From: Winogradskyella sp. PG-2
Lineage (GTDB): Bacteria > Bacteroidota > Bacteroidia > Flavobacteriales > Flavobacteriaceae
Assembly (NCBI RefSeq): GCF_000828715.1
Contig: NZ_AP014583.1
Span: forward strand, 1 to 64,000
Reading direction: 5' to 3'
DNA: 64,000 nucleotides
Shown here: positions 86-21,271 of the stretch, one piece after another
Layout: each line of letters begins with the position of its first letter
How positions within the stretch are numbered: the stretch's first letter is position 1
The notes under the pieces: model-generated
What the model saw: only the letters and a program-made list of their open reading frames with translations
Databases searched by the model: none
Told to the model about the DNA's origin: nothing
Position numbers and translations under genes: made by a program

Positions 86-1513
86 ATGGAGATCACAGCG
101 CAATCTGTATGGAGTAATTGTCTCGCCTTTATAAAAGATAATATACAATCCCAAGCATATAAAACTTGGTTTGAACCCATAGATGCTGTTAAACTTTCCG
201 GTAATGCATTAAGCATACAAGTTCCTAGTAAATTTTTCTACGAGTGGTTAGAGGAACATTATGTTAAAATATTAAAAGTATCATTAACCAAAGAACTTGG
301 CGAAGATGCTAAATTGGTTTATGTTATCAAAATGGAAAACACTTATGGTAACAAACAACCTTTTACCGAAAAGATTCCTAGTTCAAATAGAACACCTGTT
401 AAATCTCAAGATGTTGATGTTCCTTTCAATAATAAAAGCCCAGAATTAAAGAATCCATTTGTAATCCCTGGTATTAGAAATGTAAAAATCGAATCTCAGC
501 TGAATCCAAGTTACAGTTTTGAGAATTTCTTAGAAGGTGATTCTAATAGGTTAGCTAGAAATGCTGGTATTGCAGTAGCTAACAAACCTGGAGGCACTTC
601 TTTTAATCCACTTTTAATCTTTGGAGGTGTTGGTTTAGGAAAAACTCATTTAGCGCATGCTATTGGTGTTGACATTAAAGATAAATATCCTGAAAAAACA
701 GTTCTATATATCTCAGCCGAGAAATTTACGCAACAATATATTGATTCTGTTAAGAAAAATAATAGAAATGATTTTATTCACTTCTATCAAATTATAGATG
801 TGTTAATTATAGATGATGTACAGTTCTTATCTGGCAAAACAGGTACACAAGATGTATTCTTCCATATTTTTAATCATTTACATCAAAATGGAAAGCAAGT
901 TATTTTAACAAGTGACAAGGCTCCTGTTGATATGCAAGATATTGAACAACGCTTACTATCTCGTTTTAAATGGGGACTTTCAGCAGAATTGCAAACTCCA
1001 GATTTTGAAACTAGAGTTTCTATTCTTAAGAATAAGCTTTACAGGGATGGTGTTGAAATGCCAGAAGAGATTATCGAGTATGTTGCTAAGCATATTAAAA
1101 CCAATGTTAGAGAACTAGAAGGTGCAATTATCTCATTAATTGCTCAGTCTTCTTTCAATAAAAAGGAAATCACAATAAACTTAGCTAAAGATATCGTTGA
1201 GAAGTTTGTTAAGAACACTAAGCGTGAAGTTTCTATCGATTATATTCAAAAAGTAGTTTCAGATTACTTTCAAATGGATGTTAACACACTTCAATCTAAA
1301 ACGCGTAAACGTCATATTGTACAAGCACGTCAGTTGGCTATGTTCTTTGCAAAAAAATATACAAAAGCTTCATTAGCTAGTATTGGTTCTCAAATAGGAC
1401 AACGTGACCATGCTACTGTCTTACATGCATGTAAGACAGTTGACAATTTATCTTCAACAGATAAGCAATTCAGAAAGTATGTTGAAGACTTATCTAAGAA
1501 GTTAGCACTTTAA
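86..1513 (+). CDS. dnaA: Chromosomal replication initiator protein DnaA
   Basis: DnaA binds DnaA boxes at oriC as an ATP-bound filament and opens the duplex to start replication. The 475-residue protein has normal family length and all four domains. The N-terminal interaction domain covers roughly residues 1-85 and a variable linker follows to about 140. The AAA+ domain carries Walker A GGVGLGKT at 180-187 and Walker B LIIDDVQ near 240-246. The C-terminal DNA-binding helix-turn-helix has the signature RDHATV near 440-445. The ATG at 86 gives the usual N-terminus. The next gene, a phosphatase, starts 11 bases downstream. Its position at the very edge suggests that the chromosome was numbered from dnaA. 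Confidence 0.98.
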   Translation: MEITAQSVWSNCLAFIKDNIQSQAYKTWFEPIDAVKLSGNALSIQVPSKFFYEWLEEHYVKILKVSLTKELGEDAKLVYVIKMENTYGNKQPFTEKIPSSNRTPVKSQDVDVPFNNKSPELKNPFVIPGIRNVKIESQLNPSYSFENFLEGDSNRLARNAGIAVANKPGGTSFNPLLIFGGVGLGKTHLAHAIGVDIKDKYPEKTVLYISAEKFTQQYIDSVKKNNRNDFIHFYQIIDVLIIDDVQFLSGKTGTQDVFFHIFNHLHQNGKQVILTSDKAPVDMQDIEQRLLSRFKWGLSAELQTPDFETRVSILKNKLYRDGVEMPEEIIEYVAKHIKTNVRELEGAIISLIAQSSFNKKEITINLAKDIVEKFVKNTKREVSIDYIQKVVSDYFQMDVNTLQSKTRKRHIVQARQLAMFFAKKYTKASLASIGSQIGQRDHATVLHACKTVDNLSSTDKQFRKYVEDLSKKLAL

Positions 1514-1524
1514 TTACATTTATT

Positions 1525-1980
1525 ATGACTCGCATTTTAATGGTGTGTCTTGGTAATATTTGCCGTTCACCATTGGCTCATGGTATTTTACAATCTAAAC
1601 TTAGTGATGATAGTTTTTATGTAGACTCTGCTGTTACAGCTGCATATCATATTGGTAATTCACCAGATAATCGCTCAATAAAAGTCGCTAAAACAAGAGG
1701 TATAAATATTAGTACACAGAGTGCAAGGCAATTTAAAGTTTTAGATTTTGATGCTTTTGATTATATCTATGCCATGGACAACTCTAACTATACAAATATT
1801 ATTAGCCTAGCTAGAAATTCTGACGATATTGGTAAAGTAAAATTATTCCTAGAGATAAATTCTGATATTGCTAACAAAAATGTACCAGACCCATATTATG
1901 GTGAGCTAAGCGATTTTGAATATGTTTTCAATCTCGTAGATGAAACTTGTGATATTCTTGCTGATAAACTGAAAGGTTAA
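1525..1980 (+). CDS. Low-molecular-weight protein-tyrosine phosphatase
   Basis: This is a cytoplasmic phosphatase of the arsenate-reductase/LMW-PTP fold that removes phosphate from tyrosine residues. The phosphate-binding loop C-x5-R-S is present at the N-terminus (VCLGNICRSP, with Cys8, Arg14 and Ser15). The general-acid DPYY motif follows at Asp122. The length of 151 residues is typical. It sits 11 bases after dnaA on the same strand and is probably co-transcribed with it. From general knowledge this dnaA-phosphatase neighbourhood is common in Flavobacteriaceae. Its substrate is unknown; related enzymes act on tyrosine kinases of polysaccharide export. Confidence 0.93.
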   Translation: MTRILMVCLGNICRSPLAHGILQSKLSDDSFYVDSAVTAAYHIGNSPDNRSIKVAKTRGINISTQSARQFKVLDFDAFDYIYAMDNSNYTNIISLARNSDDIGKVKLFLEINSDIANKNVPDPYYGELSDFEYVFNLVDETCDILADKLKG

Positions 1981-2042
1981 ACAAGGGTTCTATTCTTAGA
2001 CTCTTATCCTTTTTTTCGTAAATTAGTAGCAAACCATTTCAA

Positions 2043-3479
2043 ATGCCTATTATGAAATCTTTATCTCTACTTACTCTCTCATTATTTTTTTGTTTTAATT
2101 TAAGCTATACTCAAGATTTAGAGTTAGAATTATTTTCTACGGGCCTAAATAATCCAGTTAATTTAAAGCATGCAGGTGACCAGCGCCTTTTTGCAGCTGA
2201 ACAAAATGGTATAATTAAGATTATTAATTCAAATGGTTCTGTGGTAAGCGCACCTTTTTTAGATATAAGTGGACGCGTTGAAAGTGGAGGCAATGAAGAA
2301 GGACTCTTAGGACTAGCCTTTCATCCCGACTACGCTACAAATGGATACTTTTTTGTTAATTATATAAAGGATGTTGTTGGTGCTTTTGATAATGAAACCG
2401 TAATATCTAGGTTTACACGCAGTAACTCCAATCCGTCTCTGGGAGATCCAAATTCTGAGTTTGTTATACTTACATATACACAACCATATAGTAACCATAA
2501 TGGTGGTGATTTAGCTTTTGGCGCAGATGGATATTTATATATTTCCTCAGGTGATGGTGGTAGTGGTGGTGATCCTGACGGAAATAGTCAAAACACAACT
2601 AATCTACTTGGTAATATTCTTAGAATTGATGTAAACAATACTACTGCAGCTCTTAATTATAGCATTCCATCTGACAATCCATTTGTAGGAAGTTCTACTA
2701 TAAGACCTGAAATATGGGCATATGGCTTGAGAAATCCTTGGAAATTTTCTTTTGATCGACTAAATAATGATATTTGGATTGCAGATGTAGGACAAGGAAA
2801 TTACGAAGAAATCAATAGAGCTTCTGGTTCTCTAGGAGGATTAAACTATGGCTGGAGATGCTATGAAGGTAACAGTATTTTTAATTCAAATAATTGTCCT
2901 AGTTCGAGCACGTTAACGTTTCCCGTTTCAGGATATAATCATTTTGGTGATGGTGAATTTAAATGCTCAATAACAGGTGGCTATGTATACAGAGGACCTA
3001 CCTATACTCCTTTTACTGGTTCTTATTTCTTTGCAGATTATTGTAGTTCTGAAATTGGTTTTATTACTTATAATAGTACTCTCGATAATTGGGACATGAC
3101 CTTAGAAGAGTTTACAGGAAACTGGTCAGCATTTGGTGAAGATGTTGATGGCGAAATTTATGTTTCTGATATTCAATCTGGGAATATTTATAAAATTACT
3201 GACGCTTTATTAAGTATTGATGAGAATAAAATTAACTCTATTCCCATCTATCCGAATCCAGTAAAAGACAGGTTAAATATTGATTTTAGCAATTATCACT
3301 CTGCTACTTCTACAGAAATTGTAATATACAGTATACATGGTAAAATTGTTAAATCAGTAAATCTTGATTCTGAAAACATACAAAAAATTGATACTTCTGA
3401 GCTAGCAAATGGTATCTACCTACTAAAAATTAATTCAAATAATGGAGACCAAAGCACTCATAAACTTGTAATAAATTAA
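2043..3479 (+). CDS. Secreted PQQ-dependent sugar dehydrogenase-like protein with T9SS sorting domain
   Basis: The 478-residue protein begins with a signal peptide (about residues 1-23, ending SYTQ). It continues with a glucose/sorbosone dehydrogenase-type beta-propeller. Typical elements are EEGLLGLAFHPDY, the NHNGGDLAFGADGYLYIS segment and RNPWKFSFD. Family members oxidise sugars with the cofactor PQQ outside the cytoplasm, but the substrate cannot be read here. The last 80 or so residues form a type A type IX secretion sorting domain (starting near IPIYPNPVKDRLNIDF), so the protein is probably exported and surface-anchored or released. Its TAA stop overlaps the ATG of the next gene by one base (TAATG), which implies translational coupling. 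An alternative start lies at codon 4. Confidence 0.88.
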   Translation: MPIMKSLSLLTLSLFFCFNLSYTQDLELELFSTGLNNPVNLKHAGDQRLFAAEQNGIIKIINSNGSVVSAPFLDISGRVESGGNEEGLLGLAFHPDYATNGYFFVNYIKDVVGAFDNETVISRFTRSNSNPSLGDPNSEFVILTYTQPYSNHNGGDLAFGADGYLYISSGDGGSGGDPDGNSQNTTNLLGNILRIDVNNTTAALNYSIPSDNPFVGSSTIRPEIWAYGLRNPWKFSFDRLNNDIWIADVGQGNYEEINRASGSLGGLNYGWRCYEGNSIFNSNNCPSSSTLTFPVSGYNHFGDGEFKCSITGGYVYRGPTYTPFTGSYFFADYCSSEIGFITYNSTLDNWDMTLEEFTGNWSAFGEDVDGEIYVSDIQSGNIYKITDALLSIDENKINSIPIYPNPVKDRLNIDFSNYHSATSTEIVIYSIHGKIVKSVNLDSENIQKIDTSELANGIYLLKINSNNGDQSTHKLVIN

Positions 3480-4195
3480 TGACAACCAATAAAGGAAAAC
3501 TATACCTCATACCTACTCGATTAGGTGATAATCCACCATTAGAAGTTTTACCAATTTCTATAAAAAAAATTATTGAAGAGAATAATTATTACATTGTAGA
3601 AAACGAAAAAACTGCACGTCGATTTATAAAACGTGTGTCACCAAGCAAATCACAACCTTCACTAAAGCTTCAAGTATTAAATAAGTATACAACAGAAGAA
3701 GAACGTAATACGTATTTAAATATATGCTTAGAGGGAACTTCTGTGGGTCTACTATCTGAGGTAGGCTGTCCAGCAATTGCAGATCCTGGATCAGATATAG
3801 TAAGCTTAGCTCATCAAATGAATATTCAAGTTGTTCCACTTGTAGGTCCGTCTTCGATAATTTTAGCCTTAATGGCCTCTGGCATGAATGGACAAAGCTT
3901 TACATTTAACGGATATTTACCAATTGATAAAAGTGAACGAAAGTCTAAATTAAAATCCTTAGAACGTTTGTCATTAGAACATAATCAGGCTCAAATTTTT
4001 ATAGAAACACCATATAGAAATATGAAAATGCTTGAAGATTTGGCAAATTCACTTCAACCCAATACAAGAGTATGTGTAGCATGTGACTTAACTCTACCAA
4101 CAGAATATATAAAAACTAAAGCTGCAAAAGATTGGAGGCACAATAAAGAGGATCTGCATAAGAGACCCGCTATTTTTATTATACAAAAAGATTAA
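3479..4195 (+). CDS. RsmI-like SAM-dependent methyltransferase (tetrapyrrole methylase fold)
   Basis: The protein of 238 residues belongs to the tetrapyrrole methylase superfamily and most resembles the RsmI/YraL branch, which methylates the 2'-O-ribose of C1402 in 16S rRNA. Recognisable motifs are GLLSEVGCPAIADPGSDIV and VPLVGPSSIILALMASGMNG, which form the SAM site, followed by FNGYLP. It is shorter than classical RsmI and diverged at its N-terminus, so the exact rRNA target is an inference. The start codon overlaps the stop of the dehydrogenase gene by one base. The 3' end overlaps the convergent lysozyme-like gene by four bases. Confidence 0.82.
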   Translation: MTTNKGKLYLIPTRLGDNPPLEVLPISIKKIIEENNYYIVENEKTARRFIKRVSPSKSQPSLKLQVLNKYTTEEERNTYLNICLEGTSVGLLSEVGCPAIADPGSDIVSLAHQMNIQVVPLVGPSSIILALMASGMNGQSFTFNGYLPIDKSERKSKLKSLERLSLEHNQAQIFIETPYRNMKMLEDLANSLQPNTRVCVACDLTLPTEYIKTKAAKDWRHNKEDLHKRPAIFIIQKD

Positions 4196-4857
4196 AGTGT
4201 AACCTTAGCTTTTTTATCAGGAATAAGCATCGAAGTATCGTAACCTGAAAACTTTTTCATGTAGTGCTTTACAGTAGATCCATAAGCATCTGCAAAGTTA
4301 TTTCCACCATAACTGCGTAAATACTTTTTAACACTTCCAGGACCAGCTAAATGTGCTGCTGCTAAAATTCCAGACTCTGTAACTTCAACTCCACCTATCA
4401 ATTTTCCTTCAAAACGCTTAATGTCTTTTCTAAGCACCCATTTATTACGTTCTGCATTAGCAATAAATGCTTTTTCTTGTAATTCTGGATTATATAAAAA
4501 TTGATTTGGGTTATAAATTCCAATTATTTTTAAAGTTTCCGAGCCGAACTGATATTTTCCTAAATATCCTAAAGTATTTACTGTAAAATAATCCCCTCTA
4601 GATTCTTTAAAAGCTAAAGCTTCTTTAAAACCTTCAAATGATTTACCCAAGTAAGGTGTAAACATGTTCTGCTTTATAGGTTCTTCTTCAGAAACCATTG
4701 CTAACTCTTCAGAAATATTGTAATTAAGTTCTAATCCTTCTGTAGAATAGGCCTCAGGTATTAGAGATGAATCTGGATACAATGCTAATGCAATTAGTAA
4801 ACAAATTGAAAATGGTAATATAAAATTCTTAACGCTATTTATATTCATAACAGCCAA
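4192..4857 (-). CDS. Lysozyme-like membrane-anchored protein (putative lytic transglycosylase)
   Basis: The protein of 221 residues has one N-terminal hydrophobic segment (about residues 11-28) that would anchor or export it. A lysozyme-like module follows from about residue 75. The segment KESRGDYFTVNTLGYLGKYQFG resembles the catalytic Glu region and GKYQF-type motif of SLT-like transglycosylases, and GILAAAHLAGPGSV matches the usual second motif. It probably cleaves glycan strands of peptidoglycan in the periplasm. ATG codons lie at positions 1 and 4, and either could be used. It follows the cell-wall operon dapF-GNAT-mltG-DUF2279 after a 109-base gap. Function is inferred from fold motifs only. 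Confidence 0.7.
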   Translation of the reverse strand: MAVMNINSVKNFILPFSICLLIALALYPDSSLIPEAYSTEGLELNYNISEELAMVSEEEPIKQNMFTPYLGKSFEGFKEALAFKESRGDYFTVNTLGYLGKYQFGSETLKIIGIYNPNQFLYNPELQEKAFIANAERNKWVLRKDIKRFEGKLIGGVEVTESGILAAAHLAGPGSVKKYLRSYGGNNFADAYGSTVKHYMKKFSGYDTSMLIPDKKAKVTL

Positions 4858-17494: not shown

Positions 17495-18850
17495 TTAATT
17501 CCAATGACTATTTTGATCATCTCTGTTCATGTACTCTTCTATTTTCTTTTTTTCCCAGTTTGCGCCAAAAGCACCATTATCTACAAATACTCTATAGGCT
17601 TGTATAACCAAGCTTAATCCCCAACCAAACATCGGAAACCAAAACCATTGTATGGTATGTCTAGAATAGGTATACCATATAAAAATTAGAAATGGAATAA
17701 CAAATACATAGGATATTAAACTATAGTAGAAAGCTTTCAATTCTTCTACGCGTTTGCGAGCTCTAACATAATCGTCATTTAGACGCTCTTGTGATTTTTG
17801 TGTTGTTCTCATGATTGATACTTGTTTTGTGAGCATAGGAATTGCAACCGCAAAATCCTTATCTCTTTGATTGATATAAACTTTTCTGTCTGAAAGTAGA
17901 TTATAACGTTGTTTAATATTCTCTAAACCAACACCACTACTTTTCTTAACTATTTGTTTTGGTTGAAGATTATTCATCACTACTAAATGATTTCCATCTT
18001 CATATATTTTTATGTTCAACGGCTTACTAGATGTTACCATATTATGCTTTACTGCATTTTCTAAAAGTAACTGCAACGATAAAGGCACAACTTTACTTTC
18101 TGGATTTGATGCCTTGTCTGGTATCTCAAAAATGATACTATCTTCAAATCGCATTTTTAAAAGCGACATATACGTTCTTGCAAAATTCAATTCCTCATCT
18201 ACAGTAACTAATTCCTTATTCTTCTGCTCTAATACATAGCGATAGACTTTAGATAAAGACGTTGTAAAACGTTGTGCATTGTCTGGATTCTCTTCGATTA
18301 AACTCGTTAGTACATTTAAACTATTGAATAAAAAATGCGGATCTAACTGATTTTTTAAAGCATCAAATTTTGCGCTTGCTGCACCTGCGATAACCTTTTG
18401 TTCTTTTATCTTATTCTTCTGGTAACGATTATAAAAATAAATGATGTGAAAAACCGAAACTATTAATAGTGTAATCCATAACCCAAATGAATAACCGCTC
18501 CAAGTTTCACCATCTATAAATGCTTGATAATCTTCACCATAAACACCAATTGATATAAATGCTCTTAGAAAAAATATTAAAATTAAAGTTATGATTACAG
18601 CTCCTAAGATTCCTATAATTATTCGTTTTAAAGTGTCCCCCTTTTTCCAGTTTCTCTTTTCCATGTAATCGAAAAATACCATGTTAGCATATCCGAGAAC
18701 AAAGGAATACAATTGATAAAACCCAAACTCAATTAAAAACTCGTTCATGTTATCATATTGGAACATATCTCCAGAAATAAGTTCCCCAAGAATGAATATT
18801 GCACATCCTATCAAAAATGTAATGACTATATTTTTAACTGATTTAGACAT
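17495..18850 (-). CDS. LytS-type sensor histidine kinase fused to a C-terminal 2TM domain
   Basis: The protein has 451 residues. Four N-terminal membrane helices lie at about 8-27, 42-60, 76-98 and 122-140. The HisKA-like module of the LytS family follows with phospho-acceptor His172 in LDPHFLFNSLNVL, and then a HATPase region with LLLENAVKHNM and GVGLENIKQRY. From about residue 360 a complete 2TM domain is attached (RKRVEELKAFYYSLISY, two helices, GANWEKKKIEEYMNRDD), an arrangement that places a membrane module after the catalytic core. It probably phosphorylates the LytTR regulator at 14121. It is the second-to-third gene of a minus-strand cluster beginning with DUF2141 and TPR-like genes. 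Confidence 0.92.
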   Translation of the reverse strand: MSKSVKNIVITFLIGCAIFILGELISGDMFQYDNMNEFLIEFGFYQLYSFVLGYANMVFFDYMEKRNWKKGDTLKRIIIGILGAVIITLILIFFLRAFISIGVYGEDYQAFIDGETWSGYSFGLWITLLIVSVFHIIYFYNRYQKNKIKEQKVIAGAASAKFDALKNQLDPHFLFNSLNVLTSLIEENPDNAQRFTTSLSKVYRYVLEQKNKELVTVDEELNFARTYMSLLKMRFEDSIIFEIPDKASNPESKVVPLSLQLLLENAVKHNMVTSSKPLNIKIYEDGNHLVVMNNLQPKQIVKKSSGVGLENIKQRYNLLSDRKVYINQRDKDFAVAIPMLTKQVSIMRTTQKSQERLNDDYVRARKRVEELKAFYYSLISYVFVIPFLIFIWYTYSRHTIQWFWFPMFGWGLSLVIQAYRVFVDNGAFGANWEKKKIEEYMNRDDQNSHWN

Positions 18851-19500: not shown

Positions 19501-19923
19501 TTATAGTGTTATTGTTATTGATTTATTCTCTTTAAGCTGAAATTTGGCATCTTTCCATTTTGGTGGTCCCATAAAACCTCTTGCATTATTAGAACAACCG
19601 TAATCTTCTTTTGGAATGCCCATAAAGTTACTATCTAATTTCCCATTATTATTTTCGTCATGAAAAATAGAAACTGCGTAAGTACCTTTTGGTAAATCTT
19701 CAAAAGTCACGACACAGCTATTATTAGTAATTTTACTTTTAGTGCCCTTGTAAGACTTGCCTAAAAACTCTGTTTCAGTATTATAAATTGAAATAAACAT
19801 TTGTCCTTTATTACTATCTAATTCTTCAACTTTAACTTCTAAACTATATGTTTCTTCAGTTTTAACCTCAAGATTAGTTAAGCTTATTATTAATACAACT
19901 ACAAGTTTTAATAAAGTTCCCAT
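19501..19923 (-). CDS. DUF2141 domain secreted protein
   Basis: Starting at the ATG at 19923 gives 140 residues with a signal peptide (GTLLKLVVVLIISLTNLEV). An upstream ATG at 19947 would add eight residues before it and is less likely. The mature part shows the DUF2141 pattern: GQMFISIYNTETEFLG, LPKGTYAVSIFHDENNNGKLD and FMGIPKEDYGCSNNARG. The fold is probably an Ig-like beta sandwich in the periplasm. Function is unknown. It is the first gene of the minus-strand cluster that leads to the 2TM-fused kinase. Confidence 0.85.
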   Translation of the reverse strand: MGTLLKLVVVLIISLTNLEVKTEETYSLEVKVEELDSNKGQMFISIYNTETEFLGKSYKGTKSKITNNSCVVTFEDLPKGTYAVSIFHDENNNGKLDSNFMGIPKEDYGCSNNARGFMGPPKWKDAKFQLKENKSITITL

Positions 19924-20117
19924 AATGTTTGTTTTTGTTTGATACAAATATCTAGCACAAATCCAGGTATTAAAAACCAGACTTACTGAATTGTGATTTT
20001 TTAATGATGAATTGTAATTATTAAAAAATCCTTCTAAAAAAAACAGTACCTTCCTTTAATATTACTTATTTGATTCACTACATAAATTGGTCACCATAAT
20101 GAAACAAAAAATATTAA

Positions 20118-20498
20118 ATGCAAAACAACTATCAAATCTTTAGACAATTCTCACATCTAGGACAGGCTACTGAATTGAGGAATATACTCGAAGCTAACGC
20201 AATTATCACTCAACTAGATGATAATACACCACCTGTTGATGTTACATTTGCAGGTAATACATTACAAAATAAATTTGAAGTACTCATACGGCAATCCGAT
20301 TTTGAAAAGACGGAACAGATTCTAGAAAAAAATGCAGAAAACATAATAGATCAAATAGATAAAGACTATTATCTATTTCAGTTTACTGATGACGAACTTT
20401 ACAATATTCTTTTAAAATCTGATGAGTGGAATGAATTTGATTACACACTAGCCCAAAAATTGCTAATTCAGCGAGGACAATTGAGCGAGGACAATTGA
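20118..20498 (+). CDS. N-terminal part of a split DUF2007-type protein
   Basis: The first 80 residues look like a DUF2007 (putative signal-transducing) domain: FRQFSHLGQATELRNILEAN and FAGNTLQNKFEVLIRQSDFEKTEQIL. The frame then continues to KLLIQRGQLSEDN and stops at a TGA. The last four codons come from the second copy of a 14-bp tandem duplication (20471-20498). Without the duplication the frame would run straight into the downstream membrane region and give one protein of 218 residues. The 126-residue product may still fold as a soluble DUF2007 domain without its membrane anchor. Confidence 0.8.
   Translation: MQNNYQIFRQFSHLGQATELRNILEANAIITQLDDNTPPVDVTFAGNTLQNKFEVLIRQSDFEKTEQILEKNAENIIDQIDKDYYLFQFTDDELYNILLKSDEWNEFDYTLAQKLLIQRGQLSEDN
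20471..20498 (+). repeat. 14-bp tandem duplication that breaks a reading frame
   Basis: GCGAGGACAATTGA occurs twice head to tail, at 20471-20484 and 20485-20498. Because 14 is not a multiple of three, the second copy shifts the frame and creates the TGA that ends the upstream reading frame. Removing one copy restores a continuous frame through to 20788. Confidence 0.95.
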
Positions 20499-20788
20499 TT
20501 GACAAAGAATTGCTAGCATCTTTAAAAAAAGAACGTTTAAAGAAATTAGCTAAGCCCGAGAGCATTCAGAAACCATGGATTATAAGTGGTTACATCTTGT
20601 CTATTTTAGGTGGCTTTTTAGGGTTAATCATTGGTTATTTTCTGTGGACATCTAAGAAAACATTACCAAATGGACAAAGGGTTTATTCTTATAGTAAAAA
20701 TGATAGAAAACATGGCAATCAAATCTTTATCATTGGATTAATTGTTGCACCAATTGTTATGCTAGTTAAAGTAGTTAGTCAGTTTTAA
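20495..20788 (+). CDS. C-terminal membrane part of the split DUF2007-type protein
   Basis: The frame opens at a TTG (20495-20497) that overlaps the TGA of the upstream half. The 97 residues contain a charged linker (KELLASLKKERLKKLAKPE) and then two hydrophobic helices (WIISGYILSILGGFLGLIIG and IFIIGLIVAPIVMLVKVV) separated by KKTLPNGQRVYSYSKNDRKHGN. This is the natural C-terminal half of the protein broken by the duplication at 20471. It might be translated by re-initiation at the overlapping TTG, or not at all. Confidence 0.7.
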   Translation: MIDKELLASLKKERLKKLAKPESIQKPWIISGYILSILGGFLGLIIGYFLWTSKKTLPNGQRVYSYSKNDRKHGNQIFIIGLIVAPIVMLVKVVSQF

Positions 20789-20801
20789 AACTTATTATAA
20801 A

Positions 20802-20829
20802 AAAAGACCATCTTAATTGATGGTCTTTT
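20802..20829. terminator. Bidirectional intrinsic terminator
   Basis: AAAAGACCATC and GATGGTCTTTT form a perfect 11-bp stem with a TTAATT loop, flanked by A on one side and T on the other. It can end the split DUF2007 gene from the left and ndk from the right. Confidence 0.85.
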
Positions 20830-20851
20830 AATATTATATAATGTTTTTGTC

Positions 20852-21271
20852 TTAAAACATATCTCTACCAGAGAAATGAAAAGCACCTTCAATAGCTGCA
20901 TTGTCATCGCTATCACTTCCATGCACAGCGTTTTCGCTAATAGAATCCGCAAACATTTTACGGATAGTACCTTCTGCTGCATCTGCAGGATTGGTAGCAC
21001 CAATTAATGTTCTAAAATCTTCAACAGCATTATCTTTTTCTAATATTGCAGCTACTATAGGTCCACGAGTCATATATTCTACTAACTCACCAAAAAATGG
21101 ACGCTCTTTATGTATACCATAAAATTCCTCAGCATCTGCATTAGTCATCTGAGTTAACCTCATTGCTACAATTCTAAATCCTGAAGCTGTAATTTTTTCT
21201 AATATTGCGCCAATGTGTCCTTTTTCAACAGCATCTGGCTTTAACATTGTGAAAGTTCTGTTAGTTGCCAT
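20852..21271 (-). CDS. ndk: Nucleoside-diphosphate kinase
   Basis: Ndk transfers the gamma phosphate of ATP to other nucleoside diphosphates through a phospho-histidine, balancing nucleotide pools. The 139-residue protein has standard length. The N-terminus is [16 protein letters not shown], and the active-site histidine is His117 in [10 protein letters not shown]. It is a single gene with a terminator at 20802-20829, and it is divergent from nrnA. Confidence 0.98.

Follow-up and report, generated by a model that had tools for sequence, protein, structure and literature searches.

Two short open reading frames (ORFs) in the genome of Winogradskyella sp. PG-2 meet inside a perfect tandem duplication of 14 bp, and the question they raise is whether they are a pair of genes, the product of a reversible switch, or a single gene that has been put out of frame. 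They lie in the window analysed here, which is a stretch of 64,000 nucleotides (positions 1–64,000 on the forward strand of NZ_AP014583.1, assembly GCF_000828715.1); the genome is a single contig of 3,811,479 bp with a completeness of 99.97. Comparison with homologues indicates that a single ancestral gene has been split into the two frames by the short tandem duplication. The best reading of this event is that a recent slippage duplication has probably disabled a dispensable, mobile accessory gene.

The features that make up the split gene are as follows.

20118–20498, + strand: upstream frame, 126 amino acids (aa), with a soluble alpha/beta (DUF2007-like) part and helices, assigned from homologues, the alignment and a model of the intact relative P0002
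20465–20484, + strand: near-direct repeat AATTCA (20465–20470) / AATTGA (20479–20484), bordering the duplicated unit and the likely substrate for slippage
20471–20484, + strand: repeat copy 1, GCGAGGACAATTGA, from direct reading of the sequence and Tandem Repeats Finder (TRF)
20485–20498, + strand: repeat copy 2, identical to copy 1, its final three bases being the TGA that ends the upstream frame
20495–20788, + strand: downstream frame, 97 aa from a TTG, with one helix and two hydrophobic segments (membrane anchor)

The two copies of GCGAGGACAATTGA stand in perfect tandem, and TRF reports the repeat with a period of 14 over 20465–20498 (score 61). The final five residues of the upstream frame, as well as its stop, come from copy 2, and the two frames overlap by the bases TTGA. 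The downstream frame is open from 20441, and the TTG at 20495 is the first ATG, GTG or TTG within it. The duplication shifts the reading frame: when one 14-bp unit is taken out of the 671-nt span, 657 nt are left, equal to 219 codons including the stop, which matches the length of homologues of 218 aa. A reading of this DNA made from its letters alone (the sequence-only reading) had described the tandem repeat at 20471–20498, the closure of the upstream frame at the TGA of copy two, the opening of the downstream frame at the overlapping TTG, and the continuous frame of 219 codons after removal of one copy, and all of these were reproduced exactly. Programmed frameshifting was considered and rejected, as no clear slippery heptamer was found by eye (a run of five A residues, closing a codon pair, lies upstream of the repeat) and the relatives need none. 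A Shine-Dalgarno-like start for the downstream frame was also rejected, because the candidate GAGGA stands too near the TTG; Flavobacteria make little use of such sites.

Within the window, this repeat is the sole perfect tandem duplication with a period of 10–60 bp, and the 28-mer formed by both copies occurs once in the complete genome. Sixty first-order Markov simulations of the window, each of 64 kb, produced no perfect duplication with a period of at least 14, and a mean of 0.22 per 64 kb with a period of at least 10. A 400-kb sample drawn from this genome as 20 stretches contained four duplications with a period of at least 10, one of which reached at least 14 (15 bp). Because it is the only one in the window, is absent from the simulations and has few counterparts in the sample, the 14-bp repeat is a real duplication event and not a product of chance, of a kind that is uncommon in this genome yet not unique.

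Searches with each of the two pieces lead to the same protein. The upstream piece matched 136 proteins, and of the 120 listed (its own entry included) 112 are 216–221 aa in length, in a search that did not admit proteins far above 220 aa. The downstream piece finds its match further along these same proteins of about 218 aa, and in the alignment the two pieces join at residues 121–124 of the 218-aa relatives. At the DNA level, 23 distinct relative loci read through in one stretch, and none of these undisrupted genes contains a perfect tandem repeat of 8–60 bp. This count leaves out L015 (40% identity, one stretch over 1–213) and L035 (27%), while L016 and L033, which are cut or rearranged near contig ends, are in neither the intact nor the broken count. 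The joint region was displayed for 20 of 22 relatives and shows no repeat; the other two, L023 and L027, were missed by the motif used, yet they too read through. Among the relatives read, the two-copy allele is seen in this genome only, and protein cluster P0001 has one member, on one contig. The gene is thus in a single frame in relatives and broken here, which supports the split gene that had been proposed from the letters of the DNA.

Two separate, conserved genes were considered as an alternative and rejected: neither search gave a matching pair with this split, and no relative carries the two-copy layout, the arrangement that the sequence-only reading had named as a refutation of its proposal. 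Shorter proteins among the upstream matches listed (P0009, P0011, P0023, P0041, P0060, P0068, P0080) are, apart from P0068, mostly on short metagenome contigs, where contig ends, artefacts of gene calling and true breaks are inseparable. The downstream search returned 15 non-self C-terminal pieces; all were inspected, and they end or start at various residues, many of them on short contigs. For annotators, the practical consequence is a warning against presenting the two frames as separate genes.

The predicted model of the intact relative P0002 (predicted local distance difference test score 83.8, predicted template-modelling score 0.56) has an alpha/beta domain at residues 5–77, short helices up to 118, a helix at 125–140 and then further helices. 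In this model the break would fall in the loop between helices 106–118 and 125–140, and the two hydrophobic segments sit in the downstream piece. The proposal that a soluble part had been separated from a membrane part therefore holds, with the split between an alpha/beta-plus-helical part and the two hydrophobic segments. The proposed DUF2007 domain is recognised only weakly. Intact relatives match the profile for this family (PF09413, putative prokaryotic signal transducing protein) weakly, over residues 17–71, and some of them carry the NCBI label ‘DUF2007 domain-containing protein’. PF09413 recognises 14 of the 29 aligned members at E ≤ 0.01, but the best score of 23.2 bits lies below the gathering cut-off of 25.7, as do all the others, and the window’s own upstream piece has no match at E ≤ 0.1. 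The protein also differs from DUF2007 in its additional helical part and two membrane segments. A structure search gave no confident homologue; PrgK-like matches involve an arrangement that is small and common, and they were not read as a sign of kinship. In a profile search against solved structures the best match reached E 0.073, and NCBIfam gave sub-threshold matches only.

The sequence bordering the unit is consistent with replication slippage as the origin of the duplication. The sequences AATTCA and AATTGA are 14 bp apart, exactly one repeat period, so a slipped strand that had copied AATTGA could re-pair with AATTCA and copy the 14-bp unit again. Each piece is open and free of further lesions, and together they keep 75 of the 78 positions that are conserved at ≥90% across the rest of the alignment (42 of 44 upstream, 33 of 34 downstream). 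The break would therefore be young, since these strongly conserved positions have been kept. A de novo duplication of this type would disrupt the reading frame of the gene, whose protein of about 218 aa combines a DUF2007-like soluble domain with two membrane segments, and would probably abolish its function. Residues 1–121 may still be made as a soluble, truncated protein that lacks the anchor; of the remainder little or nothing would be made, since translation would have to begin at the TTG that overlaps the stop. Occasional reversion by loss of one copy would be expected, as rarely as is usual for two-copy repeats, with no selection for switching.

The gene has also been broken independently, by other lesions, in three other lineages. 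In an uncultured Flaviramulus (L011, the same gene as L021, and the source of the shorter protein P0068) a TAA stands at codon 143, followed by a frameshift at about residue 199. In L032 (genome G454) a frameshift at about residue 71–73 is accompanied by further stops, and in a Bizionia metagenome-assembled genome (L017) the start is missing and the frame changes at about residue 93. None of these three genes contains a tandem repeat of 6–60 bp. Since the places of breakage differ among lineages, the comparison gives no sign that the boundary between the soluble and membrane parts is being targeted. The distribution of the gene is patchy. It occurs in 18 of the 397 family genomes, one of them by a weak match (G266); in the other 17 it is open in 13, broken in three (the window, G298 and G454) and truncated near a contig end in one (G062). 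Within the genus it occurs in four of 37 genomes, the present one included.

Three other explanations are possible, each of them less likely than a recent slippage mutation. Under one of these, the strain has a single copy and an intact gene, and the second copy is an assembly or sequencing error. This is unlikely. The two-copy state does rest on the assembled sequence, and both pieces appear freshly intact, the state expected after an error, but the genome is one highly complete contig, and sequencing errors are usually of the homopolymer type, unlike a perfect 14-bp duplication. A control for frame errors also found no split gene among those window genes that had a match in relatives: coverage of at least 80% in a single frame was reached for 11 of the 63 ORFs with at least 100 aa, and no match was flagged as frameshifted, although short synteny with the four relatives used confined the control to those 11 and it had no positive control. 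Another explanation supposes that the split works, with both frames translated, coupled through the TTGA overlap, and giving two proteins that act together. The overlap of the TTG start with the stop would suit such coupling, and the pieces are otherwise clean and well conserved. However, there is no homologue pair with this split among eight shorter proteins from the upstream search and 15 non-self proteins from the downstream search, and a TTG at the stop, with no preceding ATG or GTG in frame, is a weak start; we regard a working split as improbable.

The third explanation is an evolved switch, of the kind that the sequence-only reading had proposed as reversible and on/off. The repeat would expand and contract at a high rate, under selection, and so toggle between a membrane-anchored protein read in one frame and a soluble, truncated one. 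The perfect two-copy repeat has a unit length that three does not divide and is reversible in principle, and the break separates the soluble part from the membrane part. Reversible intragenic tandem duplications are also on record for penA (PMC4169377) and pneumococcal capsule genes (PMC4243769). Against this, the array has two copies only, the duplicated state is found in one genome only, and no repeat tract is kept at the locus in relatives, whether in the 23 undisrupted genes (periods of 8–60 bp) or in the three broken ones (6–60 bp). The other breaks lie elsewhere in the protein, and the gene is patchy and broken by unrelated lesions. With no one-/two-copy variation and no repeat in the DNA of relatives, the proposal of a switch was not upheld, and the probability of one is very small. 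Equally small is that of a slow toggle, in which the two-copy repeat would free the DUF2007-like domain from its two-helix anchor and a minority of cells would carry the one-frame gene. Should one- and two-copy alleles prove to coexist, the locus would be a case of controlled separation of soluble domain and anchor through repeat slippage. A fixed or recent mutation, which had been offered as an alternative to the switch, is the better reading.

Some observations weigh against a recent inactivation by slippage. The microhomology at the border is imperfect, matching in five of six bases, and its unbroken match at the border is one base. The tree made from the upstream half gives the window sequence a long terminal branch (0.298, 26th of 28; median 0.081), while in the tree of the downstream half this branch is not unusually long (0.200, 19th of 28; median 0.110); as estimated from these trees, branch lengths neither date the break nor show decay of the downstream part. 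Two metagenome proteins, P0011 and P0127, end or begin near the joint seen in the window, at the protein level only. Finally, the species is represented by one genome, so that both fixation and loss of function are presumptive. With these points included, a recent slippage mutation continues to be favoured, and the locus would then be a clean case of an accessory gene, patchily distributed in marine Flavobacteriaceae, that a slippage duplication has inactivated.

The surroundings of the gene bear on its mobility, and the neighbouring features are listed here.

19501–19947, − strand: DUF2141-domain gene, divergent neighbour
20802–20829, strand not assigned: terminator-like hairpin common to the split gene and the convergent ndk (two found, one per strand at the same place; 0.6 expected)
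20852–21271, − strand: ndk (nucleoside diphosphate kinase), convergent neighbour and synteny anchor

The interval between the DUF2141 gene and ndk (19948–20851) is a small hotspot of turnover, holding other genes or none across Winogradskyella genomes. An ndk match was present in 58 of 60 genomes, and the gene lies beside ndk in none of the 29 other genus loci read. Five of these 29 loci have DUF2141 nearby, and their slot contains a 247-aa ORF (L041), a 137-aa ORF (L051 and L055) or no ORF of at least 50 aa (L040 and L058). Because it is absent beside ndk in the other loci of the genus and the content of the slot varies, the gene looks acquired here, into a slot of high turnover. Loss of a horizontally mobile and dispensable accessory gene would be in keeping with the favoured reading.

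Upstream of the DUF2141 gene is a direct repeat, ACAATTC-N14-ACAATTC (19988–20015, − strand), which is kept in five of six relatives scanned (L040, L041, L051, L055 and L058; not L048) and which we take to resemble a candidate binding site of the LytTR type. A gene with His_kinase (PF06580) and 2TM domains, at 17495–18850, belongs to the same gene run as this repeat.

In some relatives, GTTGTGCAAC lies upstream of the gene and GTTGCACAAC downstream of it (L009 at 73–778, the same gene as L018; L020 at 1474–3071). In L020, elements of ~200 bp separate successive single-gene units and appear similar to the attC cassettes of integrons. A variant of the GTTGTGCAAC/GTTGCACAAC pair is found in L007 at about 3960–4830, and the pair encloses stretches of 695–1235 bp in four Winogradskyella loci (L069–L072). 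The 14-base flanking motif has 16 occurrences in 11 of 40 genomes, compared with four for the reversed control, and none in the present genome. The gene is within ~300 bp of a contig end in L009, L016, L018, L022, L025 and L033, and these positions may reflect surrounding repeats that break assemblies.

Tandem repeats in other bacteria provide points of comparison. Mycobacterium tuberculosis has promoter repeats whose copy number varies in populations (PMC12817950); these are 54–57 bp in length, alter expression and were followed in ultra-deep reads, whereas the repeat here is 14 bp, coding, and taken from one genome. Closer in type are the spontaneous, reversible duplications within ORFs of pneumococcal capsule genes (Waite et al. 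2001, 2003, as summarised in PMC4243769). There too, a gene is silenced by a duplication inside its ORF, and the change is reversible; the difference is that phase variation was observed in culture, while here there is one genome. The penA gene of Burkholderia thailandensis (PMC4169377) has duplications that arose under selection and were recovered for keeping a working product, with their reversion measured (9.3e-7 and 3.6e-5). In the present case the frame is shifted, the border repeats are imperfect and the allele is known from one genome sequence. Since two-copy repeats revert in other bacteria, some reversion would be expected here, and this alone is no proof of an adaptive switch. The likeness to penA is in the event itself (PMC4169377): both are short tandem duplications within a coding region that can be reverted by loss of a copy. 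Direct repeats bordering the template are described there as a route for some duplications, and such a pair borders the duplicated template in tandem repeats 1–3 of penA, as AATTCA and AATTGA do, imperfectly, in Winogradskyella sp. PG-2.
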